From contig NZ_JACA01000001.1 of assembly GCF_000520995.1 (NCBI RefSeq), positions 124,001 through 188,000 on the forward strand: DNA of 64,000 nt, given 5' to 3'. Below, one piece after another: positions 6,006 to 27,741 of the stretch. The notes under the pieces are model-generated. The model saw nothing but the letters and a program-made list of their open reading frames with translations. It made no database searches and was not told the origin of the DNA. The position numbers and the translations under genes are program-made. Source of the DNA: Aquimarina macrocephali JAMB N27 (GTDB lineage Bacteria; Bacteroidota; Bacteroidia; Flavobacteriales; Flavobacteriaceae). The first letter of the stretch is position 1. Every line of letters begins with the position of its first letter.

Positions 6006-6011
6006 AATAAG

Positions 6012-7612: not shown

Positions 7613-7737
7613 GATTATCTGTTTTTATACTATCAAAATTAAAAGATGTTATCGCCAATTAATATGATAATTATCATATCATTACACTACGCTAAAAAAC
7701 AGTTTATTTGTAATACCTTTAAATACTACTACAGACA

Positions 7738-8010: not shown

Positions 8011-8221
8011 ATGACCTTTATTAATTAAATCATAAATTAATTTAAGATCTTGTTAAGTATGACATTTCTCATTTTTAATCCTTTCAACGGATGGTATTTT
8101 TAAGCTATAAACTTAAATACACTAGCAATGAAAAATGCGCTTATGTATATGTTTAGCAACCTCCCTTTTGTGAGGATCATATCATAAGCTTTTCTTTTAC
8201 TTAAATTAAAACATTAAAATT

Positions 8222-9078: not shown

Positions 9079-9528
9079 TTACTTTTTTATTTTTATTTTT
9101 TGCCAATTCGTATCAGCTTTCTTTTGCAACTTTGGAGCATCTTCTTTTATCCATTTATCCAGTGTATTAATCCCCCACGAATTATAAAACAAGTATAACT
9201 TACCATCTCTTACTTCAAAGGTTTTAGGATTTATATCTACTTTTTCACTATTCACCGCTACAGCATAGGCACAATACCCTCCATATTGTGGAACATATTT
9301 ATCAGGATTACTTTTAAATTTCTCTAAATTTTCCTGACTTGCAAATTTGTAGTTTACTTTATCATGAGTTGCTATAAACTTACCATCTCCCTTAACTGCC
9401 TTATTGCCAAAGTATTCTGTAACATCATATCCTTCTGCCACAAAATCTTTATTAGTATTATAATCTACTTGCTGAGCACTTACTACTGCTACAAAGGCAA
9501 AGAATAGTATAGTTATATATTGTTTCAT
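9079..9528 (-). CDS. Secreted YHS-domain protein
   Basis: 149 residues. Cleavable signal peptide at 1-18 ('FFAFVAVVSAQ'). The YHS domain covers about 30-100: 'EGYDVTEYFGNKAVKGDGKF' with 'YKFASQENLEKFKSNPDKY' and the cysteine-containing 'PQYGGYCAYAV'. YHS domains are small metal-binding modules found in metal ATPases and in stand-alone envelope proteins of Bacteroidota. The C-terminal 50 residues ('LYLFYNSWGINTLDKWIK') are typical of this secreted subfamily. It is probably its own unit, 87 bp after the DUF350 gene with a terminator behind it. Confidence 0.88.
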   Translation of the reverse strand: MKQYITILFFAFVAVVSAQQVDYNTNKDFVAEGYDVTEYFGNKAVKGDGKFIATHDKVNYKFASQENLEKFKSNPDKYVPQYGGYCAYAVAVNSEKVDINPKTFEVRDGKLYLFYNSWGINTLDKWIKEDAPKLQKKADTNWQKIKIKK

Positions 9529-9615
9529 GTATTAGTTTTATTACGCTCTTATCCATTAAGTCGTAAAAAAACCTAATCATTACACTTTTAACATAATTAT
9601 AAGGTGTTTAAGCTA

Positions 9616-10134
9616 TTATAGCAGAAAATTAGTAGTTTCCGGATACGGTATCAAAGCACTAATCAATAGACTAATGCTATCTTTTGCTATTAAGGTAATC
9701 GATAACAATGTAGCAGTAACTACTACAGCAGAAGCCAAATTATTTTGTTGAATATCTTTAAATTCATTTACACCTTTGGTAAGAGCAGAAAAAAGTAAAA
9801 AAACCGAAGTATTAATAAGCAAGGCAAATATAAATCCAATACATAGATACAATCCAGAATATTGAATAATCTCTCCAAATGTAATTTCATTTTCTCCAGA
9901 CATCGACAGTCGTATCATATTGGTTATAGATGGGATAATTTCTCCCAGGATCATACCAATCGATAAAATAATTCCTGCTGCAAAAACAGAAAAAGCCATA
10001 TTATCTTCTCTAAAAGAAACATTCTTAAAAAATACGCTTTGCAGAATTTTAAAAGAAATAAACAGTATGAGTACAGAAACGACAATAGCGAGTACTATTT
10101 CTATAAAAGCAAGGGTTAATAGTTTCGTTTGCAT
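9616..10134 (-). CDS. DUF350-type membrane protein
   Basis: 172 residues with four strongly hydrophobic segments (about 10-32, 46-68, 92-115, 135-160). The segment 'DNMAFSVFAAGIILSIGMIL' matches the DUF350 pattern of a polar start to a small-residue-rich helix, and a second copy-like segment ('NLASAVVVTATLLS') fits the two-repeat architecture. The family is of unknown function. It is the last gene of an operon behind a LuxE-like and a transglutaminase-like gene (gap 5 bp), so it may be the membrane component of their system. Confidence 0.7.
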   Translation of the reverse strand: MQTKLLTLAFIEIVLAIVVSVLILFISFKILQSVFFKNVSFREDNMAFSVFAAGIILSIGMILGEIIPSITNMIRLSMSGENEITFGEIIQYSGLYLCIGFIFALLINTSVFLLFSALTKGVNEFKDIQQNNLASAVVVTATLLSITLIAKDSISLLISALIPYPETTNFLL

Positions 10135-10139
10135 GAGTT

Positions 10140-11159
10140 TTAGGTGTTAGTTAGTACAATATGCCAATGATTTATGTTATCAAAATTTTTGGGTAATGTG
10201 CCAATAGTAAAATGTTTATTTGTGGTCTCCCATATATAATATCGTTTTCCATTCTGCACTTTATATATTCCTTTTGCCGGAATATGCAGCCCAAGAACAG
10301 AGTGCTTATAATAATCACTATTAAGAATAGCCACATCATACCCAAAATGGCTAAGAATAGCATAAATAATTACAGTTCTGGTATCGCAATCTCCTTTTAA
10401 ATTTCCCATAAAACCTACAGGGTTTTGGATTCCGAAAGGAATATTACCTATACAGCAATCAGAACATTCTTCTAATATCACCCGAATAGATTCTTCATAT
10501 TTTTCTGGAGACTCACAGTCATTTTCAAAAACAAAAGAGTAAGGAATATCCTGTATAAAAGTCACTACCATTTCTGCAAACTCAAATTGGTTTAGTTTAT
10601 TTGTGTTTTTAATAGTAGTAAGTTCTTCGAGAATTAAGTCCAGCCTAGGCGTATCAGAAGTTACAAGATATTGATACAACTTACCCCAAGAGCCTTTTTT
10701 ATGTTTTTGTACGGTATTAAGATATTCCTTTTTAGAGGAAAAGTAATCCTTTTCCCGAATCGAAAACTTTCCTTTAAAAGTATTACCATAATTATCAGTC
10801 CATTGTCTGTCCTGTCGTAATAACATTATAGAATCTCCTTCTTCAAGGGTTTTCTCACGATAAATATATTCTGAAACATCAGATTTCTGGTTTTCTATAG
10901 ATACAGGAATAGCATCCAATACATGTCGTAATCCTAATAAAGATGCTAAAACAAATGTACTATACAGCATATATCGCCATTGAAAGCTTTTTTGATGACT
11001 ATCTAATTTACCTAATAACCACGAAAGCAGTAATAGTAGTAATGCAAAGGCCCAGAATAAAGAAATAGGGAAAAAACCTTGTACAACACTACTACCAACC
11101 AAAGAGATTAATATAATCGCCGGAAACGAAAAACAACCTAATTTCTTTTTAATTGCCAT
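10140..11159 (-). CDS. Membrane-anchored transglutaminase-like (cysteine protease fold) protein
   Basis: 339 residues. Three hydrophobic segments lie near the N-terminus (about 10-28, 30-50, 63-82). The C-terminal domain has the transglutaminase-like triad pattern: Cys in 'GDCDTRTVIIYAILSHFGYD', His in 'YYKHSVLGLHI', and an acidic residue in 'YYIWETTNKHF' (Glu rather than the more usual Asp before Thr, as in some bacterial relatives). An extracytoplasmic domain with peptidase, transamidase or ligase activity is likely. It starts 2 bp after the LuxE-like gene and ends 5 bp before the DUF350 gene. Substrate unknown. Confidence 0.72.
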   Translation of the reverse strand: MAIKKKLGCFSFPAIILISLVGSSVVQGFFPISLFWAFALLLLLLSWLLGKLDSHQKSFQWRYMLYSTFVLASLLGLRHVLDAIPVSIENQKSDVSEYIYREKTLEEGDSIMLLRQDRQWTDNYGNTFKGKFSIREKDYFSSKKEYLNTVQKHKKGSWGKLYQYLVTSDTPRLDLILEELTTIKNTNKLNQFEFAEMVVTFIQDIPYSFVFENDCESPEKYEESIRVILEECSDCCIGNIPFGIQNPVGFMGNLKGDCDTRTVIIYAILSHFGYDVAILNSDYYKHSVLGLHIPAKGIYKVQNGKRYYIWETTNKHFTIGTLPKNFDNINHWHIVLTNT

Positions 11160-12260: not shown

Positions 12261-12608
12261 TTATTTAATGATAAGTTTCTTAGTAGCTTTTAATTCTCCT
12301 TCGGTAACCTTAATTACATATACACCAGGATTTAAATGGCTAATATCTAACTCTCTACCAATTAAAACTTTAAAAAGTACTTTTTCTCCTAAAACTGTGA
12401 AAATTGAAACTGTTTTGGTAAGGTCTTTAGTAGAGGTAATAGATAACATACTTCCAGCAGGTGCTGGATTAGGGTACAAACGCAATCCTTCGATTTTTAT
12501 GCTCTTCGAATCTTGTGTTTTGGCCGTATCAGACTGTGCTTGAATTCCTGGAGCAAAAGAAAAGCAAATAAGACTAATACATGTAAGCAGCAAGTAGATT
12601 TTTTTCAT
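12261..12608 (-). CDS. Very small secreted protein consisting almost only of a type IX secretion sorting domain
   Basis: 115 residues from ATG 12608 ('MKKIYLLLTCISLICFS'); a longer frame from 12644 adds 12 unlikely residues ahead of the signal peptide. After the signal and a short 25-residue stretch comes a T9SS type A sorting domain: 'LRLYPNPAPAGSMLSI', 'VSIFTVLGEKVL', 'DISHLNPGVYVIKV' and the terminal 'KKLIIK'. There is almost no cargo between signal and sorting domain. The domain should route the protein through the outer membrane and be cleaved. The product may be the sorting domain alone, a tiny cargo peptide, or a remnant of a larger gene. Confidence 0.85.
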   Translation of the reverse strand: MKKIYLLLTCISLICFSFAPGIQAQSDTAKTQDSKSIKIEGLRLYPNPAPAGSMLSITSTKDLTKTVSIFTVLGEKVLFKVLIGRELDISHLNPGVYVIKVTEGELKATKKLIIK

Positions 12609-12977
12609 ACAAAAATTTATTTTGGGGCAATAAATATACAACATTATAATTAAAAATATTACAAATTATTAGCATACTTGTGTATAAACCACAGATTACA
12701 TGGTAGTTCAGTACATAAGTTACGGTTTTCACTTACTATGCATCTTGATTTTTATTCCTAGTCTACAAATTTAGAACTCTTACGAAGAGAAAAAAATCAA
12801 GATGAGTTACTATTTAAATTTTGTAAATCAAAAATAATGCCTGATATTTGTTTCATCATGAAGTTATAAAAGAATTATGTACATAATTGTGCACATAGAG
12901 ACCCCTCGATTTAGAAGCTAAGAATTCCTTCTTCAGTACTTCTTATTTATTTTTTTAATTCATAATTCTTTATTATC
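12609..12977. other. Intergenic region with a 13-bp inverted repeat ahead of the MATE gene
   Basis: No gene seen in these 369 bp. They hold a perfect 13-bp inverted repeat (12741-12753 with 12792-12804) spaced by 38 nt, inside which lies a smaller 5-bp hairpin (about 12777-12789). The larger hairpin has A/T tracts at the stem base but no clear following T-run. It could be a leader structure or an operator for the MATE gene. I do not recognise a known riboswitch. Confidence 0.4.
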
Positions 12978-14474: not shown

Positions 14475-16445
14475 TTATAGACCAGCGGTTCTCCAAGTCC
14501 ATGTAGAAATGTCTACTTGAGTACCTGTATTATAAGGATCCGTCGTAGTAGCATCTGCTCCGTCAATTTGTACATTAGATAAAGCTCCACCATCTTTCAT
14601 ATCAACATTGGTTGCGTATCCACTCAAGAAGATATTAGTGATAGTTGCCCCAGATTGTTTTTTAAATTGTAGTGCAGTACCATTTTGCGTAGAGATAGCA
14701 GTAAAGTTTATTAATTTAGGGTTTTCATTAGCTCCATCGGCTTCTAATGCAGTAGAGAATCCAGCAATGGTATGAGAAACATATGTATTTGTTACTGTAC
14801 CGTTCCATCCTTCTGTCCAGTCTACAGCATCATCAGAATTGTTTTCTAAGTAAAGATTTGTAGCAGATACTGTTCCTCCAAAGAATTCAACTCCATCATC
14901 TGCTCCATCAACAACGGCTATATTTTCTACAACTGTTCCTGATCCTACAGCGTAAAAAGAAACGCCATTATACTGAGAGTCAGGATTGATCTGAGCACCT
15001 GTTCCCTTGATTACCAAGTATTTTACAGATCCCGAATTATCAGTATCACTTGTACCTCCATAAATAAATCCACCTACTTCTGCAACTGCATCTACACCAG
15101 CTGTTGTAGTAGCTTTACCACATATAGTAAGACCACCCCAATCACCAGGATTACCATCTTTAGAAGACATTACTACTGGATTAGCAGCAGTACCTTGAAT
15201 GTCTATTTTACCTCCTTTTAGCACTGCGATATATACACTTACTCCTCCGGCTCTAGCAGTAATTTTTGTCCCTGCAGGAATTGTTAGTGTAACTCCATCC
15301 TGAACTAATAAAAATGATTCTAGCTCATAAGCTACAGATGCATCTAAAGTTAGATCACTAGTTAAAGTCCCTCCTAATTTACCCGAAAGGCTTAATTGTG
15401 CTCCAATCCAAGTCCATCCTGTAATATCTACAGTAGCAGCAAGGTTATAAGCATTTGCAGGATCCGCAGTAGCACCATTTATGTTCACATTAGTTAAAGC
15501 TCCACCATCTTTCATATCTACAGAAGTTTTGTATCCTGCAAGCGAAAGACCTGTGATAGTAGCTCCTGATTGTTTTTTAAATTGTAATGCAGTCCCACTA
15601 CCTTCAACTGCTTGAAAAGTATTTACTGCAGTAAGGTTATTGATCTTAGGACTTTTGTTTTCTCCATCGGCTTCAACTACAGTAGAGAAACCATCATTTG
15701 TATGAGCAACATAAGCATCATCTATAGTACCATTCCAACCTTCTGTCCAATCAATAGCATCATCATTGTTATTTTCTAGATAAAGATTTTTAGCAGATAC
15801 TGTACCTCCAAAAAATTCAACTCCATCATCTGCTCCATTAATTACAGCAATATTTTCTACAACAGTTCCTGATCCAACAGCATAAAAAGAGACTCCATTA
15901 TATTGAGCATCTGGATTAATTTGAGCACCAGTTCCTCGAATCACTAAATATTTAACAGATCCAGAGTTATCAGTATCATTTGTACCTCCATAAATAAATC
16001 CTCCTACTTCTGCAACTGCATCTACACCTGCTGTAGTAGTAGCTTTACCACATATAGTAAGACCACCCCAATCACCAGGGTTCCCTTTTTCAGAAGACAT
16101 AACTACCGGATTAGCAGCAGTACCCTGAATATCTATTTGTGCTCCTTTTAATACTGCAATAAATGATTCTGTACCACTAGCTTTAACCAAGATATTAGTC
16201 CCGGCAGGAATTGTTAGTTTAGTACCTTCTTTAACTATAAAGCTACCTGTTAGTTCATAAGTTGTACTTGCATCTAATATAAAATTTTCTTCTAATTCTC
16301 CATTCATTTCTCCTTTTTTAAGCTTATCTGCCGTAGTTTCTACAGAAGGAGGAGTAGGAGCATCATCATCACTACTACAAGACGAAAACACAAATGCACT
16401 TAAAGCAAGAGTAATCGTGCTGATTTTTAAGACTAACTTTTTCAT
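14475..16445 (-). CDS. Surface lipoprotein of two tandem beta-helix-like modules, partner of the adjacent TonB receptor
   Basis: 656 residues. Lipoprotein signal with Cys23 in 'VFSSCSSDDD'; the acidic run after the Cys resembles the Bacteroidota lipoprotein surface-export signal. The mature part is two homologous modules of about 300 residues (roughly 45-345 and 350-656). Each has 'LTIPAGT', 'IDIQGTAANPVVMSS', 'GNPGDWGGLTICGKAT', 'YNGVSFYAVGSGTVVENIAV', 'DDGVEFFGGTVSA' and 'DWTEGWNGT', with the short repeating turns expected of a right-handed beta-helix. It is 39 bp after the TonB receptor gene 16485-19304, mirroring the other receptor/lipoprotein pair. Probably a substrate-binding or processing partner; substrate unknown. 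Confidence 0.8.
   Translation of the reverse strand: MKKLVLKISTITLALSAFVFSSCSSDDDAPTPPSVETTADKLKKGEMNGELEENFILDASTTYELTGSFIVKEGTKLTIPAGTNILVKASGTESFIAVLKGAQIDIQGTAANPVVMSSEKGNPGDWGGLTICGKATTTAGVDAVAEVGGFIYGGTNDTDNSGSVKYLVIRGTGAQINPDAQYNGVSFYAVGSGTVVENIAVINGADDGVEFFGGTVSAKNLYLENNNDDAIDWTEGWNGTIDDAYVAHTNDGFSTVVEADGENKSPKINNLTAVNTFQAVEGSGTALQFKKQSGATITGLSLAGYKTSVDMKDGGALTNVNINGATADPANAYNLAATVDITGWTWIGAQLSLSGKLGGTLTSDLTLDASVAYELESFLLVQDGVTLTIPAGTKITARAGGVSVYIAVLKGGKIDIQGTAANPVVMSSKDGNPGDWGGLTICGKATTTAGVDAVAEVGGFIYGGTSDTDNSGSVKYLVIKGTGAQINPDSQYNGVSFYAVGSGTVVENIAVVDGADDGVEFFGGTVSATNLYLENNSDDAVDWTEGWNGTVTNTYVSHTIAGFSTALEADGANENPKLINFTAISTQNGTALQFKKQSGATITNIFLSGYATNVDMKDGGALSNVQIDGADATTTDPYNTGTQVDISTWTWRTAGL
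14478..16315 (-). repeat. Intragenic tandem duplication of about 0.92 kb
   Basis: The two halves of the lipoprotein gene are recognisable copies at DNA level. For example the stretch around 15100-15160 and that around 16020-16080 are nearly identical over tens of bases, offset by about 920 bp. The boundary falls near 15400. The single-module paralogue at 19818-21146 suggests a one-module ancestor. Exact limits were not computed. Confidence 0.75.
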
Positions 16446-16484
16446 TTTGTTTTAATTTTTGTTCGTATTTAATTTTTGAGTATT

Positions 16485-19304
16485 CTAAAATGTATAATTA
16501 AGGCTTAGACTTATCGTACTTCCTTTTTTATAAGAAAGTATTGTTTCTTCTACCTCGTTAACTGGGTTGTTATTAGAATCAAATCTGATTCCGGCTTGAT
16601 CCTCTTGGGCTATTAGTTGGGTTTGTTTAATTTTAGGATTTAACAGGTTTCTAGCTGTTAATTTGACTTTGAGTTTGTCATTGATTTGTTTACTAAGGAT
16701 AAGATCCATTGTTACAAATCCATTTTCAATGATTTCTTCGTTGTATAAAGTTTCTTTATTCGCCACATCATCTGGAGAACCTAATGCAAATATTCTATCT
16801 GAAGCATAGTTACCTGTTAGGGTAGCGATGAATTCCTTTTCTTTTTGATTAGAATAACTTAGAGATCCATTTACGATCCAATCTGATGCGCCTTGTAATC
16901 CAGATTCGGTTTTATTTTTATATCTAAACTCTTCAAACTGACCGGCATCTCTATCTTCTCCTTTAAGATCTTGTGAATGCCACATACGAGTAACATTAAC
17001 ATTTAAGTTCAGGTTTGCTTTATCTTCAATTTCAATAAGATTAACTCGTCCTTCAAGTTCAATACCATATATATCTGCTTTTTCTGCTGTATTGAAGTAA
17101 GAGAACACTCCTGCAGCTCCCCTGGTTTGTGCCAAGTTAATTGGATCTTCTATTTTTTTATAGAAACCTGTTAGTGATATTAACTCCTTAGATGTTGGAA
17201 AAAATTCCCATTTCAAATCATAATTATAATTAGTCGAAGGCTTTAGATTAGGATTCCCTCGTGTTACCCTACCTGTAGGAGAAACATATTCGAAAGGTGC
17301 TATTTCTTTAAATTCCGGTAATGTAAAAGTTTGACTGGCGGCTAAGCGAATATTGTGTTTCTCATTAACTTCATACTTAAGACTCATACTAGGTAATAGA
17401 TTAGTATACTCGTTAAAAATGAAATTATCACTACCAGAAAAGTTGGCTACATCAAAGAAAGGTACATCTAATTGATCCTCTTCATATCGAATACCAAGAT
17501 TAGCAACTAATTTTTTAATCCGAATATCAAAATTAAGGAAAGCCGCTTGTTCTTCTAATAAAGCTTCATATGTATCATTCTGATCTCTCGGAATAAAAGT
17601 CCCATTATCTACATTTTGAAAATTTAAACCTTCGTCTAGGTTATCCAAAGAGCTAATTGATAATCCTATATTACTTCTAGAAATAGCTAAGCCATTAAAT
17701 CTGGATTCAAAATCTCTCTCTTTTTTTCTATAATTAACTCCAATATCAAATTTTGCAGAATAGAACTCACTATCAGTTATTGTTCTATTATATTTAAGGA
17801 ATCCATTTATTTCTTTATCTTTAATTTCTTGAGATGATTTTCGTTGTTGAAACCCTCCTGTATTACCAAACCTAATATCATTTTCTCCATAAATGTTAAG
17901 TTCATTTCTAATACGATTAGGCTCATCTGCATTTACAACATTATAACCAATACCCCAATCCAGCTCGTCCTTCTCTGTAATACTATGACTACCAAATAAT
18001 TGATTAATAAAAAGAGTGGTTTGTCTAAACAATTGATCTCTTACAAATTGAGATGCATTATCCGCAACTGGTGTTTCTTCAAAAATACCGGCTTTGCCTC
18101 CTCTACCAAATTCATTAAGTTGATCTTCTCCTTTATTAATGAATAGAGAATTGAATTTCAGTTTAGTGTTACTGCCTATCCGATATGCTAAATTTAGAAG
18201 TCCTGTTGTATTCGTAGTACTTGTAAAACGTTCGGCATCCGGAATAGTATCGTTAACAAAGTTTGCTCTGTATTCTTTAAACTCTCCAATCCTTTGTTGA
18301 TTGGATTTTGAATATGATCCTGTAAAAAACACAGATAAATTATTTCCAAATAACTCTATTTTTTCTCCTGCTGTAACAGAAATACCAAAATTAGCCGGAG
18401 TATTTGATGTCTCTGGATTCCAGCTCTCTTGTGTTAGAGCTGTTTCTGTATTTAGGTTACTAGAATAAAATCCTAAGGTTGTATTATTAGTGTTTTGTGT
18501 ACTTCTAAAATTGCTCCATGTATCACCATCAATAACATTCGTATTCACACCTCCGCTTATACCTATAGTTAGCTCTCCATTTCCAGAATATTCTTTGGAT
18601 ACTATATCAACATTTCCAGAGGCCTGATCCCCATAAAACAATGAAGAATATGTTTTACTTACTCCAATATTTTGAATGATATTTGCGGAGAATAAGCCTA
18701 AATCGATATTTTTTCTTTCAACATCTTCAGAAGGAACAGGCAATCCATTCATTGTTGTAGAAAGGTAACGATCTCCAAGACCTCTAATAAAGATATCTCC
18801 AGATCCTTCTACTTTATTAACCCCAGATATTTTTGCTGTAGCGGCAGCGGCATCAGATATTCCTTGTTTTGATAACTGTTCTGCTCCAATACTTTCTTTA
18901 ATTTGTACTGCTTGTTTCTGTTCTAAAAGCAGGGCTTCTTCGCGTTCACGATTGGTAACTACTTTTATCACAACTTCTTCTAGTGCTGCTGCTGTAGCTC
19001 CCATAGTAGCATCTACCACCGCTACTTTATCTGCTTCTACTACTACATTAGGTATTTCTACCGTTTGATATCCTGTAAAACTAAACAATAGCGTATATGT
19101 CCCTACAGGAACTCCTGTAATTTCATATAACCCATCAAAATCTGTAGACGCTCCTTTGGCAGTACCTCCTACAATTACATTAGCAAAAGGAAGAGGTTGA
19201 TTGTTTGATTCTTTATCTAATAATTTTCCGGCAATAGTCCCGGTTTCTTGTGCAAAAATAGCTCCTACAAAAAATAGCGCTAGTACTGTAAATGTTTGTC
19301 TCAT
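16485..19304 (-). CDS. TonB-dependent outer-membrane receptor (second paralogous copy)
   Basis: 939 residues. Signal peptide at 1-18 ('LALFFVGAIFAQ'). Residues about 20-105 are a carboxypeptidase-regulatory-like domain ('GKLLDKESNNQPLPFANVIV'), then 'LEEVVIK' and a plug domain with 'VEGSGDIFIRGLGDRYL'. The C-terminal 700 residues are the 22-strand barrel ending 'KKGSTISLSLNYTF' (terminal aromatic residue). It lacks a SusD partner; instead a beta-helix lipoprotein gene follows at 39 bp. Closely related to the receptor at 21188-23998: the first 60 residues are nearly the same. Energised import of a large or scarce nutrient; a phosphorus source is suggested by the neighbours only. Confidence 0.9.
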   Translation of the reverse strand: MRQTFTVLALFFVGAIFAQETGTIAGKLLDKESNNQPLPFANVIVGGTAKGASTDFDGLYEITGVPVGTYTLLFSFTGYQTVEIPNVVVEADKVAVVDATMGATAAALEEVVIKVVTNREREEALLLEQKQAVQIKESIGAEQLSKQGISDAAAATAKISGVNKVEGSGDIFIRGLGDRYLSTTMNGLPVPSEDVERKNIDLGLFSANIIQNIGVSKTYSSLFYGDQASGNVDIVSKEYSGNGELTIGISGGVNTNVIDGDTWSNFRSTQNTNNTTLGFYSSNLNTETALTQESWNPETSNTPANFGISVTAGEKIELFGNNLSVFFTGSYSKSNQQRIGEFKEYRANFVNDTIPDAERFTSTTNTTGLLNLAYRIGSNTKLKFNSLFINKGEDQLNEFGRGGKAGIFEETPVADNASQFVRDQLFRQTTLFINQLFGSHSITEKDELDWGIGYNVVNADEPNRIRNELNIYGENDIRFGNTGGFQQRKSSQEIKDKEINGFLKYNRTITDSEFYSAKFDIGVNYRKKERDFESRFNGLAISRSNIGLSISSLDNLDEGLNFQNVDNGTFIPRDQNDTYEALLEEQAAFLNFDIRIKKLVANLGIRYEEDQLDVPFFDVANFSGSDNFIFNEYTNLLPSMSLKYEVNEKHNIRLAASQTFTLPEFKEIAPFEYVSPTGRVTRGNPNLKPSTNYNYDLKWEFFPTSKELISLTGFYKKIEDPINLAQTRGAAGVFSYFNTAEKADIYGIELEGRVNLIEIEDKANLNLNVNVTRMWHSQDLKGEDRDAGQFEEFRYKNKTESGLQGASDWIVNGSLSYSNQKEKEFIATLTGNYASDRIFALGSPDDVANKETLYNEEIIENGFVTMDLILSKQINDKLKVKLTARNLLNPKIKQTQLIAQEDQAGIRFDSNNNPVNEVEETILSYKKGSTISLSLNYTF

Positions 19305-19755
19305 TATATGTTTTCAAAATCTAATACAAATAAATACGGTTTTACAGTAATTGATTTTACCCCACTATTATGGTTAGTTTAAGGGAATGTGACGTAGGAA
19401 AAATGAAAAAAAGGTGAAGCCTGTAGGATTCTTGAGGGAATTTGCCCCTAGGATTTACACTATTAAATTGCCAATAAACTACTGAATCATAAGGTATACT
19501 CGAATCAAATAAGGCATACTGATCTATATCATATTTTGAGCCTCAAATATTAACGGCGATACAAAATCTATTTTTTATAAATTATTAGAGAATTGTTATG
19601 AAGGTGTTAAACCGAGTAAATTTATAGAATCTGCCTTAACACTAAGATAAAACACCATAGCGAAATATGAGATTCTAAGATTAGTTTTCTTTACGTTTTT
19701 AATCTTTCAAATCGATTATTAACTATTTGTATATTGTTTATTCTGAAATATACTA
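19305..19755. other. Intergenic region upstream of the second receptor gene, with a weak Pho-like repeat
   Basis: No gene seen. On the plus strand, units resembling AATGTTA occur at 19581, 19592 and 19603, an exact 11-bp spacing, but only the middle one fits well and they lie about 280 bp from the start codon. The promoter for the receptor pair should be here, since a terminator closes the upstream unit at 19756-19786. Confidence 0.35.
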
Positions 19756-19786
19756 AAAAAGAAGCCTGGCGATTAGCCAAGCTTCT
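19756..19786 (-). terminator. Intrinsic terminator of the first receptor/lipoprotein operon
   Basis: Stem of 10 bp with one mismatch (19761-19770 with 19777-19786), followed on the minus strand by six Ts (complement of 19755-19760). Confidence 0.85.
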
Positions 19787-19817
19787 ATAATTCAAATATT
19801 TAATATGGGGTATTATA

Positions 19818-21146
19818 TTATAAACGAGTCCAATCTGATGTCCAGGTATCGCCCTCTTGTAATGCTCCGGCATAGTTAGCAGCATCAAAGAATGCTCCTA
19901 ATGTAGAAGGGTCAAAATTATCTACACCATCTACCGCAGCAGTATACGTATAGGTTCCTCTAACACCAGTAATTTCAAAACCAGTTGGTATAGCAGTACC
20001 AGCACTATTAAATGGGGCACCAGAACCATCTATCGTGAAATTATTAAAAGTTGCAAAATCTGCCAAATCCACAGTTGCACCACCATGATCCAAATCGAAT
20101 GATTTTGCATTATCAATGATAGAATTTTTAACAATTACTTCATTATTATTAAGATTGATCAATGTTTGATCATCATCAACTTCAATTCCTTTTCCTGGGA
20201 ATGCTTTGATTATAGCATTGTACATTGTTACTTTGGTTCCTGCTCTAAATTCAATTCCTTTATTTTCGCCATCACCATCTTCTGCACCGATTAGCGTAAT
20301 ATTAGATAAAGTAGGGTTAGAGAATGGAGCAGCATCAGGAGTAGAAGACAAATTATCTGCTTCGATTCCTTTATCTCCTGCAGCAGAAGTTTGCTGTGCG
20401 ATCCAGAATTGCCCATTTCCTATCCATCCATCTGTCCAATCAAAAGAATCATCTCCCGCACCAGTTACAATAGCATATTTTAAATTTACGGTTCCGCCAA
20501 AAAATTCTACTCCATCATCATTTCCATTAAAAGCCTGGATATACTCTAAAGTAGTTCCATTACCAACACCATATAATGAAAGTCCGTTATATTCTGCATC
20601 ATCATTAATTTTTCCTCCTGTATATTCTAAACGCACATAACGCAATATCCCCGAGTTATCTGCCGGATCAGTTCCCCCGTAGGTAAGGTTTGCTACTTCT
20701 GTAGTTGCTGTAGTACCTCTATTGATAGGAGCTTTACCAGCCAATAATAATCCTCCCCAATCTCCAGGATTAGGAGTAGATTTATTAGAAGTAAATACGA
20801 TAGGTTGTGCTGCAGTACCTTCTGCAATGATTTTTGCTCCTTGCTCGATAGCTAAATATGAGAATACTCCTCCTACATCACCTGCGATAATTTTTGTTCC
20901 AGCTTCGATAGTTAATGTCACTCCATCTACCACTGATACACCTCCTCTTAACTCGTATACTTCGCTTGATTTTAACGTAGTATTTTGCGTAATCTGACCT
21001 TCTAATATTTCGGTTCCAGAAGTATCTCCTCCAGAACCTCCCTGGTTGATTGTGATATCTCCAATATTATCTTCCTGTATAGTACAAGCACTAAATAAAA
21101 CTGCTGTTCCTATTAATATTCCCGTAAATAATTTTTTAGTTTTCAT
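19818..21146 (-). CDS. Surface lipoprotein with one beta-helix-like module, partner of the adjacent TonB receptor
   Basis: 442 residues. Lipobox 'LFSAC' (Cys21) followed by 'TIQEDN', an acidic surface-export-like signal. One module shares the landmarks of the two-module protein at 14475-16445: 'GVTLTIEAGTKIIAG', 'NPGDWGGLLLAGKAPI', 'EYNGLSLYGVGNGTTLEYIQ', 'GNDDGVEFFGGTVNLK' and 'SFDWTDGWIG'. It follows its receptor by 41 bp and is closed by a terminator. Pho-box-like arrays lie ahead of the receptor. The DDG/DDQ-rich turns could bind Ca2+. I know of no demonstrated function for the family. Confidence 0.8.
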   Translation of the reverse strand: MKTKKLFTGILIGTAVLFSACTIQEDNIGDITINQGGSGGDTSGTEILEGQITQNTTLKSSEVYELRGGVSVVDGVTLTIEAGTKIIAGDVGGVFSYLAIEQGAKIIAEGTAAQPIVFTSNKSTPNPGDWGGLLLAGKAPINRGTTATTEVANLTYGGTDPADNSGILRYVRLEYTGGKINDDAEYNGLSLYGVGNGTTLEYIQAFNGNDDGVEFFGGTVNLKYAIVTGAGDDSFDWTDGWIGNGQFWIAQQTSAAGDKGIEADNLSSTPDAAPFSNPTLSNITLIGAEDGDGENKGIEFRAGTKVTMYNAIIKAFPGKGIEVDDDQTLINLNNNEVIVKNSIIDNAKSFDLDHGGATVDLADFATFNNFTIDGSGAPFNSAGTAIPTGFEITGVRGTYTYTAAVDGVDNFDPSTLGAFFDAANYAGALQEGDTWTSDWTRL

Positions 21147-21187
21147 TTTATATAATGATTAATTTTAGTTGTGTTTTCCGTTTATAA

Positions 21188-23998
21188 TTAAAGTTTAAAA
21201 GTAACTCCAAGGCTAAAGTTGATTCCATTATCAAATTTGTAGGTAGTAAACTCTTGACCTAAGTCTTCTTGATCCTGATATCGTTCTATAGATGGGTTTA
21301 ATAAATTTTTAGCTTTAAGGCTTATTTCGACATGCTTTCCTATCTCATCTTTAAAATTAAAGTTTAGCACTCCGAATCCTTTTTCAAAAATATCTCCTAC
21401 TCCATTTCCACCAGCAGAATACACTCGATCTCCAAAAATGTTAAAATCCAAAGCTGAAGTAATTTTGTGATTCCCAAATTCTTTGGCATACACTACATCT
21501 GCATTTACCAGAAAAGGAGAAGCACCTTGTAATTGTCTTTCTACATTAGTTGGAGCAATATTAGACCCATTAAACGTTGTAATTGTTGGGTCAATTTCTA
21601 CCTGTGTATACATTATTGTAGTATTAACACCAAAGTTTAAGCTGTTCCAGATTGTTTCTTCTACTTTAAAAAGATTACCCAGGTTCTTTCTATATTCTAA
21701 TTCTGCTCCAAAGATTACAGCATTATCAGAATTGATAAATGTGTTTACATTTGAAGCTGATGCTACATATACTTTTTCGATTGGGTTTTCGATATATTTA
21801 CCAAATAATGTGGCTGCTACCAATTCGCCAGTCTGCTCGGGAAAATGTTCCCATTTGATATCAACATTATAGTTATCAGAATTACTAAGAATAGTATTTC
21901 CCAGAGTAGCTTCGGTAACATCTTCATCTAAGAAAGGTGCTATTTCTGTAAATTTTGGCAGTGTAACTGTTTTACTAGCTGCAAAACGAAGGTTTGATGT
22001 TGAGTTTAATTCATATTTTAAACTTATACTAGGCAGGATAAACGTTTCATCAATCTTTTGTGTTTTAAAAGGAGACGTTTCTAAATCCTGTTGTTCTCTA
22101 TAAAATATATTTTGCTCAAACAATTCTGCACGAACACCTCCATTGAAGGTTAATTTCTCTGTGAATGCATATTGTAAATTTGCATACCCTGCAATGGTTA
22201 ATAAATCTGCTTCGTAAATTCTTGTTGGATTAAGATTTTCTAAAACAATGTACTCTCCGTTAAGGAAATTAGTTTCGTTTAGTACTGCATCCGGATTATT
22301 AAAATCTACATTTTGATTTACAAGACTGTTAAGGTTGTAGTTTAACTGATTAGATTCAAAATCTCTATCTTTTGATCTTGCTGCTAATCCAACAGTAAGT
22401 GCATTTTTAAAATTATCATCTTCATCCTTTCCAAAATTAATATCAAAATCAATCTTACCAGAATAATCATTTTCATTTAATTCCTGATAAAAACGTTGAT
22501 TGTTTGCCAAATCCGGACTTGTACGATTTCCTAAAACAAGGTTTCCATTTTGCAACTCTGTAAATACCAATTGACGTCTGTCTGGTATTAGTCCCTTTGC
22601 TTTATTATAAGCAACTCCCCAATTTAGCTCATATTTCCCTTCGTTAAACCTATGTTCTCCCGTAAGTTGTTGTGTAAACAGGTTATTTTGTTCATAGGTT
22701 CCTCTTCTAAGGCGAATACCAACATCTGTATCTTCACTACTAACACCATCTGTAAATTCTCTAAGTTCATCTTCGGTATCATTAACAAATAAGGTAGTTG
22801 CAAGAATCTTATTGCTACTATTCCAGCGGTACCCTAAACTTCCTAATAGTGTAGTGTTGGTAAAATATTCATATCGATCTACATTTTTAAAATTTCCTAA
22901 TCCAGTAATACTTTCTCCCTGAGAGTTAAAAGCAGCTTGGTTACCTCCCAAAGCAGTTCTATGGTTTTGACTAAACGATCCAGTCACCAATACATCTAAT
23001 TTCTGATCTTCTGCAATTGTGAAGGTTTTACCCCCTGTAATACTCATACCCCCATCTGGAGCATTAAATTTTTTAACAGGATTAAAAGAAGTACTAAAAG
23101 GATAGTAATCTATTTCTGTACTATTGTAATTGTAGTTCGGGATGTCTAAGAAAACAGGAACTCTTCTTGATCCATCATCTAATCCCCATTCATCGTATTG
23201 CCCACCATTAAGTAAGAAAAAATCATTACTAACAGCATTAGAATTTACTCCCGAACTAAAACCAACTTCTAAAAAACCTTTTCCAGGACGGTCTTTGGTA
23301 TCGATATTTACACTTGCTCCAGCAAAATCACCATAGATATCTGGAGAATACGTTTTATAAATCCCTAAATTCTCAACTATATCGGTTGGAAATATCCCAA
23401 GGTCAATAAGTTTTAACTTTGGGTTTAATGACGGGATAGGTAATCCATTTAAATAGGCATTGTTATAACGATCTCCTAATCCACGAACATATAATTTATC
23501 ACTCTGCCTAGAAATACCTGTCGCTTTAGTTAAGCCTGTAGCAACATCACTTACTCCTTTTTTAGAAAGTTCTTGCGCTCCTATCTTTTGTTGAATAGTC
23601 ACCGCATTTTTTTGTTCTAATAAAATAGCTGCTTCAGATTCTTTTTTGGTCGTAGTTTTAATTACAACTTCATCTAATGCAGCTGCACTTGCTGCTATAG
23701 AAGTATTGACTGTAGTGGTTTCATTTGATTTTACGATTACATCTTTAATGTCTAAAGTTTCATACCCTACAAAACTAAACTCTAGTACATATGTTCCTGG
23801 CTCCAGGTTTTCAATAGTATATAAACCATCAAAATCTGTAGTCGTTCCTTTGGTTGTTCCTTTAATTAATACATTAGCAAAAGGTAAAGGTTGATTATTA
23901 GATTCCTTGTCTAACAATGTTCCGGTAATCGAACCGGTTTCTTGCGCGAAGAGTATTCCTACAAAAAATAACGCAAAAAGTGTAACAATTTTTCTCAT
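21188..23998 (-). CDS. TonB-dependent outer-membrane receptor (Pho-box-linked copy)
   Basis: 936 residues with the same architecture as the receptor at 16485-19304: signal peptide 1-18, carboxypeptidase-regulatory-like domain ('GTLLDKESNNQPLPFANVLI'), plug with 'DKLYVRGLGDRYNNAYLNGL' and a barrel ending 'GINFSLGVTFKL'. First gene of a two-gene operon with the lipoprotein at 19818. The 150 bp ahead carry about ten Pho-like units spaced by 11 bp, the most elaborate array in the window. I infer strong induction under phosphate starvation and import of a phosphorus compound. Not a SusC protein: the SusD partner is absent. Confidence 0.92.
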   Translation of the reverse strand: MRKIVTLFALFFVGILFAQETGSITGTLLDKESNNQPLPFANVLIKGTTKGTTTDFDGLYTIENLEPGTYVLEFSFVGYETLDIKDVIVKSNETTTVNTSIAASAAALDEVVIKTTTKKESEAAILLEQKNAVTIQQKIGAQELSKKGVSDVATGLTKATGISRQSDKLYVRGLGDRYNNAYLNGLPIPSLNPKLKLIDLGIFPTDIVENLGIYKTYSPDIYGDFAGASVNIDTKDRPGKGFLEVGFSSGVNSNAVSNDFFLLNGGQYDEWGLDDGSRRVPVFLDIPNYNYNSTEIDYYPFSTSFNPVKKFNAPDGGMSITGGKTFTIAEDQKLDVLVTGSFSQNHRTALGGNQAAFNSQGESITGLGNFKNVDRYEYFTNTTLLGSLGYRWNSSNKILATTLFVNDTEDELREFTDGVSSEDTDVGIRLRRGTYEQNNLFTQQLTGEHRFNEGKYELNWGVAYNKAKGLIPDRRQLVFTELQNGNLVLGNRTSPDLANNQRFYQELNENDYSGKIDFDINFGKDEDDNFKNALTVGLAARSKDRDFESNQLNYNLNSLVNQNVDFNNPDAVLNETNFLNGEYIVLENLNPTRIYEADLLTIAGYANLQYAFTEKLTFNGGVRAELFEQNIFYREQQDLETSPFKTQKIDETFILPSISLKYELNSTSNLRFAASKTVTLPKFTEIAPFLDEDVTEATLGNTILSNSDNYNVDIKWEHFPEQTGELVAATLFGKYIENPIEKVYVASASNVNTFINSDNAVIFGAELEYRKNLGNLFKVEETIWNSLNFGVNTTIMYTQVEIDPTITTFNGSNIAPTNVERQLQGASPFLVNADVVYAKEFGNHKITSALDFNIFGDRVYSAGGNGVGDIFEKGFGVLNFNFKDEIGKHVEISLKAKNLLNPSIERYQDQEDLGQEFTTYKFDNGINFSLGVTFKL

Positions 23999-24036: not shown

Positions 24037-24144
24037 AGTGTTAAATCTGTGTTATTCAAAAATTAATTATGTGTCATATTAATGTTAGAAAATTGTTATC
24101 TCGCATTGTTTATTGAATGTTTTCTCAGTGTTAATTCTATGTTA
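24037..24144 (-). promoter_or_regulatory. Extended Pho-box-like array upstream of the TonB receptor operon
   Basis: On the plus strand, units resembling AATGTTA start at 24037, 24048, (24059 poor), 24070, 24081 and 24092, all 11 bp apart. A second phase runs at 24105, 24116, 24127 and 24138, again 11 bp apart. On the strand of the receptor gene they read as TAACATT-like. E. coli PhoB sites are 7-bp units repeated every 11 bp in the same way. The first unit is about 40 bp from the receptor start codon. Confidence 0.7.
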
Positions 24145-24800: not shown

Positions 24801-24844
24801 TTTACATTTAAACAACATTTACGTAACATTAAATTAACATTAAT
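24801..24844 (+). promoter_or_regulatory. Four-unit Pho-box-like array between the MORN-type and CHR genes
   Basis: ACATT cores start at 24804, 24815, 24826 and 24837, exactly 11 bp apart, within TTAACAT-like units. It stands between divergent genes and could act on either. Its orientation matches the porin and PiT sites relative to the plus-strand gene chrA, but it is much nearer to the minus-strand MORN-type gene. Confidence 0.7.
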
Positions 24845-25035
24845 CTTGTAAGATAATGACTATCAATCATTTAATCAATGTTAAATTTATAGTTCACAAT
24901 ATTTAAGATTTCTAATCTAGCTATCTATTCAGCTTTGTTTTTGTAAAGTTAAGACTCGTACTAATCTAGATAACAGCGTAGAATCAACAACAATGATTGG
25001 TAACATATTTTAGTTTAATTTAGTGCCTTATTTCA

Positions 25036-25043
25036 TAGTTTTG
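25036..25043 (+). promoter_or_regulatory. Bacteroidota-type -7 element (TAnnTTTG) ahead of the CHR transporter gene
   Basis: TAGTTTTG is a full match to the TAnnTTTG consensus and lies 41 bp before the start codon. Confidence 0.5.
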
Positions 25044-25084
25044 ACTGGCTTAGTTCTATGTATAATTCTAGAATCATACTATAA

Positions 25085-26215
25085 ATGAATAAAAAGAAAA
25101 AGCTTATTGAGGTCGCTATTGTTTTCTTTAAATTAGGTTGTTTTGCTTTTGGTGGTCCTGCAGCGCATATTGCTATGATGGAGAACGAAGTAGTTGATAA
25201 AAGAAAATGGATGGATAAGCAACATTTTCTGGATCTTATCGGAGCCACAAACCTGATTCCTGGCCCTAATTCTACCGAAATGACGATGCATTGCGGTCAT
25301 GAGCGTGCCGGAATTGCCGGTTTATTTGTCGCCGGAGTCTGTTTTGTTTTTCCTGCCGTAGTTATTACAGGAGTTTTGGCTTGGTTCTATACTTCTTATG
25401 GGCAGTTACCAGAAGTAACTCCTTTTATTTCAGGAATTAAGCCAGCTGTATTAGCCATTATTTTATCGGCAATTCTAAAATTAGGAAAGAAAGCATTAAA
25501 AAACTGGGAATTAGGTACTATCGGAGTTTTAGTGCTAATTTTTAGTTTATTGGGAGTAAATGAGGTTATTGCACTGTTAAGTGCAGGTCTTTTTGGAATA
25601 TTATATTTTTATTCTAAATCGAAATTAAATACCTCCTCTAAATCTGTTGCTCCGTTTTTTATATTTAAAATTTCTACACTTACGTTTATTAAACTTTCTT
25701 CTATAAAAGTTCTTTGGACATTTTTTAAAGTTGGTGCCATATTATATGGTAGTGGTTATGTTCTGTTTGCATATCTGGATGCAGAATTAGTGACAAAAGG
25801 GTGGTTGACCAGACCAGAATTGATAGATGCTATTGCGGTAGGTCAATTTACACCTGGCCCTGTTTTATCTACTGCGACCTTTATTGGGTATCAATTAGCG
25901 GGATTTTGGGGAGCCATAGCTGCTACTTTAGGAATTTTTCTTCCTTCTTTCCTTTTCGTATTACTTCTTAATCCATTAGTTCCCAAAATGAGGAAATCAA
26001 TACTGCTTAGCTATTTTCTCGATACTGTAAATATTGCAGCCGTAGCCATCATGTTATCGGTATTATTTGTAATGTCTTTGGATACTTTAATCGATTGGAA
26101 AGCAATAAGTATTGCCATAATAAGTACTATCATCATTTTTGGAATTAAAAAAGTAAATCCTATGTGGATTATACTCGGCGGATCACTTCTCGGTTACATG
26201 TTAAGTCTTATATAG
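25085..26215 (+). CDS. chrA: CHR-family (chromate) transporter, fused two-domain form
   Basis: 376 residues with 10-12 hydrophobic segments. Both CHR domains are visible. Domain 1 has 'FKLGCFAFGGPAAHIAMME' and 'GATNLIPGPNSTEMTMHCG'. Domain 2 has 'FFKVGAILYGSGYVLFAYL' and 'IAVGQFTPGPVLSTATFIG'. The family exports chromate in proven cases, but many members probably handle other oxyanions. Its setting inside a phosphate-related region next to a Pho-like array hints at a different anion here; this is inference. Confidence 0.85.
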   Translation: MNKKKKLIEVAIVFFKLGCFAFGGPAAHIAMMENEVVDKRKWMDKQHFLDLIGATNLIPGPNSTEMTMHCGHERAGIAGLFVAGVCFVFPAVVITGVLAWFYTSYGQLPEVTPFISGIKPAVLAIILSAILKLGKKALKNWELGTIGVLVLIFSLLGVNEVIALLSAGLFGILYFYSKSKLNTSSKSVAPFFIFKISTLTFIKLSSIKVLWTFFKVGAILYGSGYVLFAYLDAELVTKGWLTRPELIDAIAVGQFTPGPVLSTATFIGYQLAGFWGAIAATLGIFLPSFLFVLLLNPLVPKMRKSILLSYFLDTVNIAAVAIMLSVLFVMSLDTLIDWKAISIAIISTIIIFGIKKVNPMWIILGGSLLGYMLSLI

Positions 26216-26426: not shown

Positions 26427-26457
26427 AAACATTAAGTTAACATTAACTTAACATTGA
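26427..26457 (+). promoter_or_regulatory. Three-unit Pho-box-like array upstream of the phosphate-porin-like gene
   Basis: ACATT cores at 26429, 26440 and 26451 give three near-perfect 11-bp units (TTAACATTAAC type). The last unit lies about 11 bp before a TTTG at 26467-26470 that could be the -7 element, the spacing expected if an activator replaces the upstream promoter element. The start codon is at 26495. The cleanest example in the window. Confidence 0.78.
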
Positions 26458-26494: not shown

Positions 26495-27694
26495 ATGAAA
26501 TTAAAAAACACACTAACAGCGTTAGTCTTTTTTACGCTTTGTTTTGTGAATGCTCAGGAAACTACTGAGACTAAATTTGGAAAAGGAATCCTAAATGTAG
26601 TTGCTAAAGATAGCTCTTGGAGTATGAAATTTGCAACCAGATTTCAATTACTTTCTACCACTGGTTGGGATATTAATGATGGTGACTACAGTAAACCCGA
26701 GACTAATTTTTTAGTAAGAAGAGCACGTTTAAAGTTTAGTGGTTTTGCTTATAGTCCAAAACTTCAATATAAAATAGAGTTGGGATTATCCAATAGAGAT
26801 ATTTCTGGAGCTTCAGAATTCACTAGTAATGCTCCTCGTTATATTCTTGATGCTGTTATAAAATGGAATTTCTACAAAAACTTTACCCTTTGGGCAGGGC
26901 AAACAAAACTACCCGGTAATGTAGAACGTGTTATTTCTTCAGCAAACTTACAATTAGTAGATCGTTCCAGATTAAATAGTCGATTTAACATAGATCGTGA
27001 TTTGGGAGTACAATTAAGACATCACTTTAAATTATCTGATAAATTTATAGTTAGAGAAGCTTTTGCAGTTTCTCAGGGAGAAGGAAGAAATATTACCAGT
27101 GGGAATTTAGGTGGTCATCAATATACAGGAAGACTTGAATTATTACCTTTTGGTAAATTTAAAGGTAAAGGAGATTATAAAGGAGGGGATCTTAAGAGAG
27201 AACAAACTCCTAAATTAATGCTGGCGGCAACTTATGATTTTAATGCAGATGCTGTAAAAAACAGAAGTAATCAGGGTTCTTATATGCAAACCAATACTGG
27301 TTTTTATGAAACTAACATCTCTACAATATTTGTAGATGCTGTGTTTAAGTATAAAGGTTTCTCTTTTATGGGAGAGTTTGCTGATAGAGATGCTGATGAA
27401 GCTATTGCGGTAGAAGAAGATGGGACACCAACAGGAGATATCGTTCAGGTTGGTAATGCATTAAATTTTCAAGCCGGATATTTATTTAAAAGCAATTGGG
27501 AAGTAGCAGGACGTTATACCAATCTTAATTACGATGCAATTGTTGGTAAAAATCTTGAAGAACAATATACCCTTGGTGTATCAAAATATATAGCTGGTCA
27601 TAACTTAAAAGTTCAATCTGATATAAGTTATACCACTGAAGACGGGGATAGTAGTGGATTAATGTATAGATTACAATTTGATATACATTTCTAA
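26495..27694 (+). CDS. Phosphate-selective porin O/P-like outer-membrane protein
   Basis: 399 residues from ATG 26495. A TTG nine codons upstream extends the frame, but the ATG gives a clean signal peptide ('LTALVFFTLCFVNAQ'). The body shows the OprO/OprP pattern: 'NFLVRRARLKFSGFAYSPKL' near the start, 'WAGQTKLPGNVERVISS', 'NSRFNIDRDLGVQLRHHF', and 'VDAVFKYKGFSFMGEFADRD' among alternating beta strands of a 16-strand barrel, ending in Phe. It should let phosphate or polyphosphate cross the outer membrane. Preceded by the best Pho-like array and followed by the PiT gene 77 bp on. Confidence 0.88.
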   Translation: MKLKNTLTALVFFTLCFVNAQETTETKFGKGILNVVAKDSSWSMKFATRFQLLSTTGWDINDGDYSKPETNFLVRRARLKFSGFAYSPKLQYKIELGLSNRDISGASEFTSNAPRYILDAVIKWNFYKNFTLWAGQTKLPGNVERVISSANLQLVDRSRLNSRFNIDRDLGVQLRHHFKLSDKFIVREAFAVSQGEGRNITSGNLGGHQYTGRLELLPFGKFKGKGDYKGGDLKREQTPKLMLAATYDFNADAVKNRSNQGSYMQTNTGFYETNISTIFVDAVFKYKGFSFMGEFADRDADEAIAVEEDGTPTGDIVQVGNALNFQAGYLFKSNWEVAGRYTNLNYDAIVGKNLEEQYTLGVSKYIAGHNLKVQSDISYTTEDGDSSGLMYRLQFDIHF

Positions 27695-27710: not shown

Positions 27711-27741
27711 TAACAGTTTGGTAACATTAAGCTGAGAATTG
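27711..27741 (+). promoter_or_regulatory. Pho-box-like array upstream of the PiT transporter gene
   Basis: Units at 27713 (ACAGT core), 27724 (ACATT) and 27735 (AGAAT), spaced by 11 bp; only the middle one is perfect. A TATTTG-containing -7-like element follows at about 27747-27754, before the start codon at 27772. Confidence 0.55.

Follow-up and report, generated by a model that had tools for sequence, protein, structure and literature searches.

Tandem pairs of TonB-dependent transporter and predicted beta-helix lipoprotein beside phosphate genes in Aquimarina macrocephali: matched forms and a possible role in phosphorus uptake

What function is served by two neighbouring TonB-dependent transporter (TBDT) genes, each followed by a gene for a lipoprotein of a family other than SusD, when they stand beside phosphate genes? 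This question is raised by a stretch of 64,000 nucleotides from Aquimarina macrocephali JAMB N27 (NCBI RefSeq GCF_000520995.1, contig NZ_JACA01000001.1, positions 124,001 to 188,000), here called the window, to which all coordinates refer unless another contig or locus is named. An earlier note, made from the letters of the window, had proposed that the two pairs form an undescribed uptake system in which a surface lipoprotein acts as a lid or processing partner for phosphate-containing ligands. The reading favoured here, with a probability of about 0.62, is that each pair is a Pho-controlled uptake machine for phosphorus-bearing ligands, the lipoprotein being the cognate capture or lid subunit of its receptor.

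Matched receptor and lipoprotein forms

The two pairs lie in tandem on the minus strand at 14475-23998, where a check of open reading frames (ORFs) recovered all four genes as the earlier note had described them. TBDT1 (21188-23998, minus) encodes 936 amino acids comprising a signal peptide, a CarboxypepD_reg-like N-domain (residues 24-113), a plug and a barrel, and is followed by lipoprotein 1 (19818-21146, minus; 442 amino acids), a member of the FII/ElpS-like family with a single beta-helix domain (core at about 20097-21017). After a gap of 513 bp from lipoprotein 1 comes TBDT2 (16485-19304, minus; 939 amino acids), of the same architecture, and then lipoprotein 2 (14475-16445, minus; 656 amino acids), in which the domain is present in two tandem copies at 15435-16319 and 14523-15386 (minus; derived from domain matches at residues 43-337 and 354-641) and whose gene contains a direct repeat of 300 nt with 81% identity. 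Both receptors scored above the cut-offs of the Pfam families PF00593, PF07715 and PF13715, their best NCBIfam match, TIGR01782, remaining far under its own (163.6 and 155.5 versus 310 bits), and the AlphaFold2 model of TBDT1, with a predicted local distance difference test (pLDDT) score of 85.2, matched TBDTs in Foldseek. In agreement with the earlier note, no SusD was detected by Pfam among the 20 window genes scanned, and PF07980, the SusD family for which the whole 6.06-Mb genome was searched, has 10 places, none of them in the window and the nearest on the contig about 257 kb past its end. The nearest named record is Aquimarina sp. AU58, with lipoprotein 1 97% identical.

Conservation of the pairing was examined in 100 loci (the window, 80 named loci and 19 loci of the genus; L081 and L117, like L084 and L116, are the same records), in which ORFs were marked with a 15-row lipoprotein profile and the two receptors. 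In this neighbourhood survey, of the kind that the earlier note had proposed, a same-strand TBDT was present within 700 bp of 105 out of 121 lipoprotein ORFs, coming first in 100 cases and second in 5. In the alphaproteobacterial loci L100 and L114 the lipoprotein comes first, followed by the TBDT and then by the type II secretion system (T2SS), with GspD confirmed by Pfam. Another arrangement was observed in two deltaproteobacterial metagenome-assembled genomes (L094:12455-19343 and L104:12545-20142), where ExbB and ExbD, in L094 together with TonB, lie between the family lipoprotein and the TBDT, possibly forming a self-contained TonB system.

The partners also vary together in sequence. Pairwise identities were correlated over 95 TBDT-first pairs, L081 and L084 being dropped as duplicates and receptors shorter than 850 amino acids excluded, with the plug/barrel taken from residue 231 on and the N-domain as residues 21-110. 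Barrel and lipoprotein identities were correlated with r=0.91, or 0.89 as a partial correlation given the N-domain, and the N-domain against the lipoprotein given the barrel yielded -0.07. The genus set comprised 41 loci (40 of the 66 genus genomes plus L070), and the 32 with two pairs gave barrel-lipoprotein correlations of 0.99 for pair 1 and 0.98 for pair 2, N-domain-lipoprotein correlations of 0.23 and 0.43 respectively, and cross-pair correlations of 0.10 and 0.12. For pair 2, 14 of 496 comparisons were discordant at a cut of 0.6, these being borderline (barrel 0.46-0.51, lipoprotein 0.60-0.65). Because of conserved adjacency combined with co-inheritance, receptor and lipoprotein are very probably cognate partners, in keeping with the functional pair that the earlier note had assumed.

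At the second site, close strains carry different blocks. A form with a TBDT of 939 and a lipoprotein of 656 amino acids is found in the window, L119, L155 and L157, and a form of 921 and 405 amino acids in L116 (AU58), L117 (A. megaterium), L134 and L156, which L167 joins (0.84-0.89). Pair 2 of the window and of L119 are 97/96% identical (receptor/lipoprotein), and L084 (the same record as L116) and L117 are 99/99% identical, versus only 45-47/41-45% between the two forms, with MATE, ChrA, porin and PiT at 91-99% where both loci have them. The exchanged block runs over 14475-18650 (minus), from about codon 219 of TBDT2 to the end of lipoprotein 2, and the N-terminal part of TBDT2 (18651-19304, minus) is constant, residues 21-110 of the window receptor being 94-100% identical to those of L116, L117, L134 and L156 and 90% to that of L167, all of the other form. 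DNA homology between the forms ends 532-649 nt into TBDT2; the protein breakpoint is codon 219 when the window is compared with L116, L117, L134 and L156, and lies at about codon 180-219 over the close strains. On the right side, homology to the window is back 11-91 nt past the stop codon of lipoprotein 2 in L116, L117, L134 and L156. DNA identities of unlike forms (72-77%) were left unused, being inflated by gappy alignment.

Where the flank genes compared (between one and three of PiT, porin and MATE) reached at least 93% identity, which was so in 38 comparisons, pair 1 was of the same form in all 38, pair 2 of the same form in 16 and of a different form in 22; flank genes had been compared on both sides in 13 of these 22, on the left only in 8 and on the right only in 1, and the 22 are comparisons among few strains, not 22 events. 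A parsimony count on the tree of TBDT1 plus lipoprotein 1 DNA from nine loci gave at least three form changes, the sisters L117 and L119 (support 1.0) carrying different pair-2 forms. L157 and L119 are 97.7/97.2% identical in pair 2 DNA but only 89.6/85.0% in pair 1, evidence that blocks moved between lineages. Over more distant species, pair 1 itself also occurs in two forms (45/48% between L125 and L132, with pair 2 at 87/85%). In L134, which carries the 405 form, a decayed stretch just downstream (5753-6178, minus) is 72% identical to 57 residues of the window lipoprotein 2, which suggests a trace of the two-domain form at the site and a replacement in place; no such remnant was seen in 16 other loci examined. 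Judged from these comparisons, plug/barrel and lipoprotein make up a putative specificity block, preceded by a promoter and an N-domain that stay constant, with different blocks at the second site in close strains. Among the matches listed by one broad literature search none dealt with pair exchange in Aquimarina, which is not evidence of absence.

Site-specific inversion was considered as the cause of the exchange and set aside. Pair 2 is surrounded by inverted repeats of only 18-24 nt with 79-90% identity, and a search at E 1e-3, in which lipoproteins and not spare receptor parts were sought, found no spare lipoprotein copy in the genome beyond lipoproteins 1 and 2 (P0003, P0001) and two paralogues on contig C33.

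Lipoprotein family and phosphate setting

Both lipoproteins have a signal peptide, a Cys and acidic residues after it (CSSDDD; CTIQED), consistent with the acidic surface-export signal that the earlier note had recognised. A permissive lipobox pattern is present in 98 of the 100 family lipoproteins placed after a TBDT, and in 90 of these 98 at least two of the six residues behind the Cys are acidic, a property shared by 17% of random 6-mers from the same proteins. Neither lipoprotein matched a Pfam or NCBIfam family above cut-off, SusD families of Pfam included, the only trace being Beta_helix in lipoprotein 1 (16.5 bits versus a cut-off of 25.9). Against solved structures, the lipoprotein profile gave chance-level matches only (8 at E up to 1, best 0.16), and TBDT1 (P0004) alone gave no match at 1e-3. 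AlphaFold2 predicts a beta-helix for lipoprotein 1, with pLDDT exceeding 90 over most of the stretch between residue 51 and about 290, in line with the fold suspected in the earlier note, and conservation over the family reveals an invariant acidic cluster. Within the family the domain has been doubled repeatedly.

Other members of the family were encountered away from TBDTs or in longer forms. An open frame of 1873 amino acids with four tandem beta-helix domain matches occurs in another genome of the phylum (G111:C7:155496-160697). The two paralogues on contig C33 (L115, G000:C33:4000-20000), at 6940-8679 and 9174-10940, have a signal peptide, no obvious lipobox and no TBDT among adjoining ORFs, each being followed by a small protein (145 and 165 amino acids), and several genus relatives have two or three clustered family matches on another contig.

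With regard to phosphate control, both receptor promoters contain TAACA direct repeats with an 11-bp pitch, which is the geometry of PhoB/OmpR-type sites. The large Pho-like array that the earlier note had attributed to one pair was recovered as three exact TAACA-N6-TAACA repeats upstream of TBDT1 (24039-24054, 24083-24098 and 24129-24144, minus), with one more upstream of TBDT2 (19594-19609, minus). Further copies on the plus strand precede the chrA-like gene (25085) at 24824-24839, the porin gene at 26438-26453 and the PiT gene at 27711-27726. Of 35 exact repeats genome-wide (29 for the reversed-pattern control), 7 fall within 8.1 kb at this locus, for which an even spread expects 0.05. The 28 repeats elsewhere are no more than the reversed background (28 versus 29), and consequently the motif as written fails to define the whole regulon; at 20 of these 28 no phosphate gene was recognised from ORF position and first residues, without family searches.

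Stretches of 350 bp upstream of pairs were also scanned for TAACA-N6-TAACA with up to one mismatch, with the reversed pattern as control. The 44 Aquimarina pair promoters gave 94 matches versus 36 reversed (exact, 47 versus 0), and the 60 promoters outside the genus, among which L075 from an uncultured Aquimarina is not counted, gave 73 (3.5 per kb) versus 7 (exact, 14 versus 0), counts that are not independent since the promoters are related by descent. Repeat positions near -100 and -56 recur in many promoters of the genus. Upstream of 662 control ORFs from the other loci, 96 matches were found in 231 kb (0.42 per kb), and upstream of 216 Aquimarina ORFs 70 in 76 kb, 41 of them exact, as would be expected if the porin, PiT and chrA promoters share the repeats. 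In Riemerella, the core of the PhoP motif is TTTAACA (PMC9603813).

To the right of the pairs follow a chromate-transporter-like gene, a Porin_O_P family porin (26495-27694, plus; PF07396 above cut-off), a PiT-type phosphate transporter (27772-30159, plus; PHO4 by Pfam, its PhoU-like C-terminal part below cut-off), a PhoB-type response regulator (30376-31059, plus; PF00072 and PF00486, typed by architecture and neighbours), a PhoR-type histidine kinase (31059-32138, plus; PF00512 and PF02518, typed by position and without a PF11808 match) and a glycosyltransferase (32076-33131, minus; PF04101, the family given for Fjoh_0541); a MATE exporter lies to the left. The earlier claim that both pairs adjoin phosphate genes holds for pair 1, pair 2 reaching them only via pair 1. 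Within the flanks fetched for the 80 named loci, 25 loci have PhoB, 20 PhoR, 19 PiT and 12 the porin; PhoB, PiT or porin, singly or together, occur in 40, a count without a random-locus baseline. PhoB and PhoR together lie within the fetched pair flanks in nine of the ten loci titled Flavobacterium (the exception being the 4.6-kb L052), F. johnsoniae not being among the 80. Phosphate genes also stand beside two of three TBDT-adjacent proteobacterial pairs, namely Pst-PhoU upstream in L114 (a PBP_like_2 protein, two permeases of which one is DUF3708, described as a phosphate transporter, an ATPase and PhoU), and PhoR and PhoB, divergent from the pair, in the gammaproteobacterial L101. From promoters and neighbours, there is strong reason to expect that the pairs are under Pho control in this organism, and the phosphate link drawn in the earlier note is borne out as well by the published induction of F. 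johnsoniae counterparts (PMC8115612).

Two further observations were made nearby. The ChrA-like chromate-transporter gene (24824-26215) has the same upstream repeat as the phosphate genes and may be Pho-controlled, and a small protein of 127 amino acids (12261-12644, minus) is made up almost entirely of a signal peptide and a sorting domain for type IX secretion (PF18962).

Proposed mechanism and rival explanations

In the proposed mechanism, PhoR/PhoB would act via the TAACA-N6-TAACA repeats and switch on both pairs under phosphate shortage. The lipoprotein, given its lipobox and acidic signal, would go to the cell surface, as shown by others for the Caulobacter lipoprotein ElpS, and would there serve its own receptor as a docked capture or lid subunit in the manner of RagB with RagA, a step suggested by how tightly barrel and lipoprotein are co-inherited. 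The acidic face of the beta-helix, perhaps via Ca2+, might then hold the phosphorus-bearing ligand, which is the weakest step, and the receptor would import it with TonB energy, as is known of its family. That the imported ligand bears phosphorus seems reasonably likely; that the lipoprotein is a lid rather than an enzyme is a somewhat better guess than its opposite, the RagAB-like pattern of variation favouring the lid. More tentatively, and short of even odds, the second site may be a cassette slot in Aquimarina, in which a constant promoter and receptor N-domain precede an exchangeable block of plug/barrel and beta-helix lid, each block being specific for its own phosphorus-bearing ligand.

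The lipoprotein might instead be a surface enzyme, acting as a hydrolase or lyase of the beta-helix type or as a phosphatase activator and releasing phosphorus-bearing fragments for the receptor to import. The predicted model does have the right-handed beta-helix of polysaccharide lyases and GH28 hydrolases, but NosD, tailspikes and adhesins share this fold too, so that it is uninformative on catalysis. Overproduction of elpS raised phosphatase activity, but refolded pure and immunoprecipitated ElpS had none, and its authors suggested an activator instead (PMC2996285). A free enzyme needs no tie to one barrel form, yet the correlation within the genus reaches 0.98-0.99, and such a role appears unlikely. 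The one-to-one matching of barrel and lipoprotein would also suit a translocon and its substrate, the receptor being the dedicated outer-membrane exit channel of the lipoprotein and not a ligand importer; however, Bacteroidota lipoproteins with acidic signals generally reach the surface without a private TBDT. For such a channel there is a precedent in the TBDT Oar, needed for PopC secretion in Myxococcus (PMC6434023), and the passage of ElpS across the outer membrane does not depend on the T2SS, its route being left unstated; but deletion of cc0171, the adjoining TBDT gene, did not suppress ElpS production, surface display in the mutant being unstated as well (PMC2996285). An exit channel is very improbable. 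Another possibility is a cargo free of phosphorus (a metal chelate or cofactor) merely in demand under phosphate starvation, with escape from phages or bacteriocins driving the exchange. The 50 best Foldseek matches of the receptor are TBDTs of siderophore, heme, copper, pyrroloquinoline quinone, B12 and transferrin type together with XusA, none labelled SusC or RagA, and swapping of surface-exposed parts is what phage escape would be expected to produce. Placement with PhoB, PiT and porin, as well as with Pst-PhoU or PhoBR in two proteobacterial loci, and the response of three F. johnsoniae TBDTs, the counterparts among them, to phosphate depletion only, not to nitrogen or iron (PMC8115612), speak against this cargo, which is very unlikely.

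Several observations weigh against the proposed uptake by cognate receptor and lid. No TBDT was found within 700 bp of 16 of the 121 lipoprotein ORFs; in 5 of these the receptor is cut by a contig end (L052) or lies 1.9 kb off (L056), or the ORF is a second tandem copy (L047, L112) or a fragment (L134), and 6 of the remaining 11 have a same-strand TBDT 0.85-5.8 kb downstream (L066, L078, L089, L094, L097, L104), leaving 5 without a TBDT in the DNA examined (L073, L077, L093, L099, L111), of which L073 and L099 have less than 750 bases downstream. No Lys or His, and R301 (86%) as the sole Arg, is conserved at 85% or more in the lipoprotein family, so that direct phosphate binding would be without an obvious basic site. 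The between-locus comparisons behind the correlations are not independent. As for the block, an additional 1.1-2.4 kb of DNA follows lipoprotein 2 in L116, L134 and L156, and in L119 and L157 a right-hand neighbourhood common to both, without MATE, is unlike the window beyond about 60 nt, which leaves the right end of the block undefined there. Finally, CC0171 was reported to be constitutive, and elpS deletion left phosphatase activity unchanged (PMC2996285).

Comparison with known systems

The arrangement is already known and is not, as the earlier note had it, undescribed: PUSIV of Flavobacterium johnsoniae corresponds to it, and Caulobacter ElpS/CC0171 is a related case (PMC8115612, PMC2996285). 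Such loci were named PUSIII and PUSIV in 2020, with lipoprotein forms FI-FIII (PMC8115612). According to that report, the F. johnsoniae PhoBR cluster holds a glycosyltransferase (Fjoh_0541), OprP, PhoR, PhoB, a TBDT (Fjoh_0545) and lipoprotein FII (Fjoh_0546), and PUSIII holds FI (Fjoh_3856) with TBDT Fjoh_3857; phosphate depletion raises all listed PUSIII/PUSIV genes except OprP and PhoR (Table 1), the TBDTs induced by phosphate depletion only being three in number, Fjoh_0545 and Fjoh_3857 included. The window shares with PUSIV a TBDT directly followed by a predicted pectin-lyase-like beta-helix lipoprotein (IPR011050 for FII), as well as PhoB, PhoR, an OprP-type porin and a PF04101 glycosyltransferase in the cluster, and differs from PUSIV and PUSIII in that two pairs stand in tandem, of which the second has a duplicated domain in its lipoprotein and varies in form between close strains. 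Within the available sections of PMC8115612 no function is assigned and no exchange reported, and deletions of Fjoh_3856 and Fjoh_0546 left colony spreading unaffected (PMC7807042). The family, for which 132 of the 198 genomes in a phylum-wide sample gave a match (E 1e-10), is widespread yet without an assigned function in the literature found, and no later assignment appeared in the literature searched, bioRxiv and most subscription journals lying outside its scope.

ElpS (CC0170) of Caulobacter crescentus is surface-exposed and made under phosphate starvation, its gene adjoining TBDT CC0171 and the T2SS (PMC2996285, 2010); homologues of ElpS and CC0171 co-occur, and an interaction was suggested by its authors. 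FI-FIII are 31-36% identical to ElpS over 50-54% coverage (PMC8115612). The kinship is drawn from these published identities and from L100 and L114, not from the CC0170/CC0171 sequences themselves. Likeness lies in a phosphate-starvation surface lipoprotein beside a TBDT, with the related L100 and L114 genes adjoining a TBDT and the GspD secretin; unlike in the window, the lipoprotein of L100 and L114 precedes the TBDT and has 955 amino acids and two domains, and the L114 TBDT has no CarboxypepD_reg match.

Among receptors with surface lipoproteins of another kind, XusA/XusB of Bacteroides thetaiotaomicron is a non-SusCD TBDT whose lipoprotein recognises the ligand and passes it on (PMC13142918; PDB 9gbc). 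Of all solved structures, XusA matched the receptor profile best in sequence, the match covering positions 5-159 of 914, and XusB was absent from the 8 sequence matches (E up to 1) that the lipoprotein profile obtained; unlike what is proposed for the window pairs, XusA/XusB is an iron-siderophore system. RagA/RagB, like SusC/SusD, also joins a TBDT to a surface lipoprotein, and ragA and ragB types correspond in every genome, the first 150 amino acids of RagA with the CarboxypepD_reg domain being nearly identical in all types (PMC11817032), so that matched types and a constant receptor N-part are common to both systems. RagB, however, is a SusD-type TPR lid, and the window lipoprotein is a predicted beta-helix. 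What is added here to these descriptions are the adjacency counts, the repeat cluster, the co-inheritance with block swap, and the predicted fold with its acidic cluster and domain doubling. With matched blocks that differ between close strains, the specificity for partner and ligand can readily be tested by genetics, and a lid role would add the beta-helix to the known kinds of TBDT partner. If the cassette slot is true, a form-swapping system of receptor and lid like RagAB would have been invented a second time, on a structurally unrelated basis, in nutrient scavenging and with lids that repeatedly double their domain.

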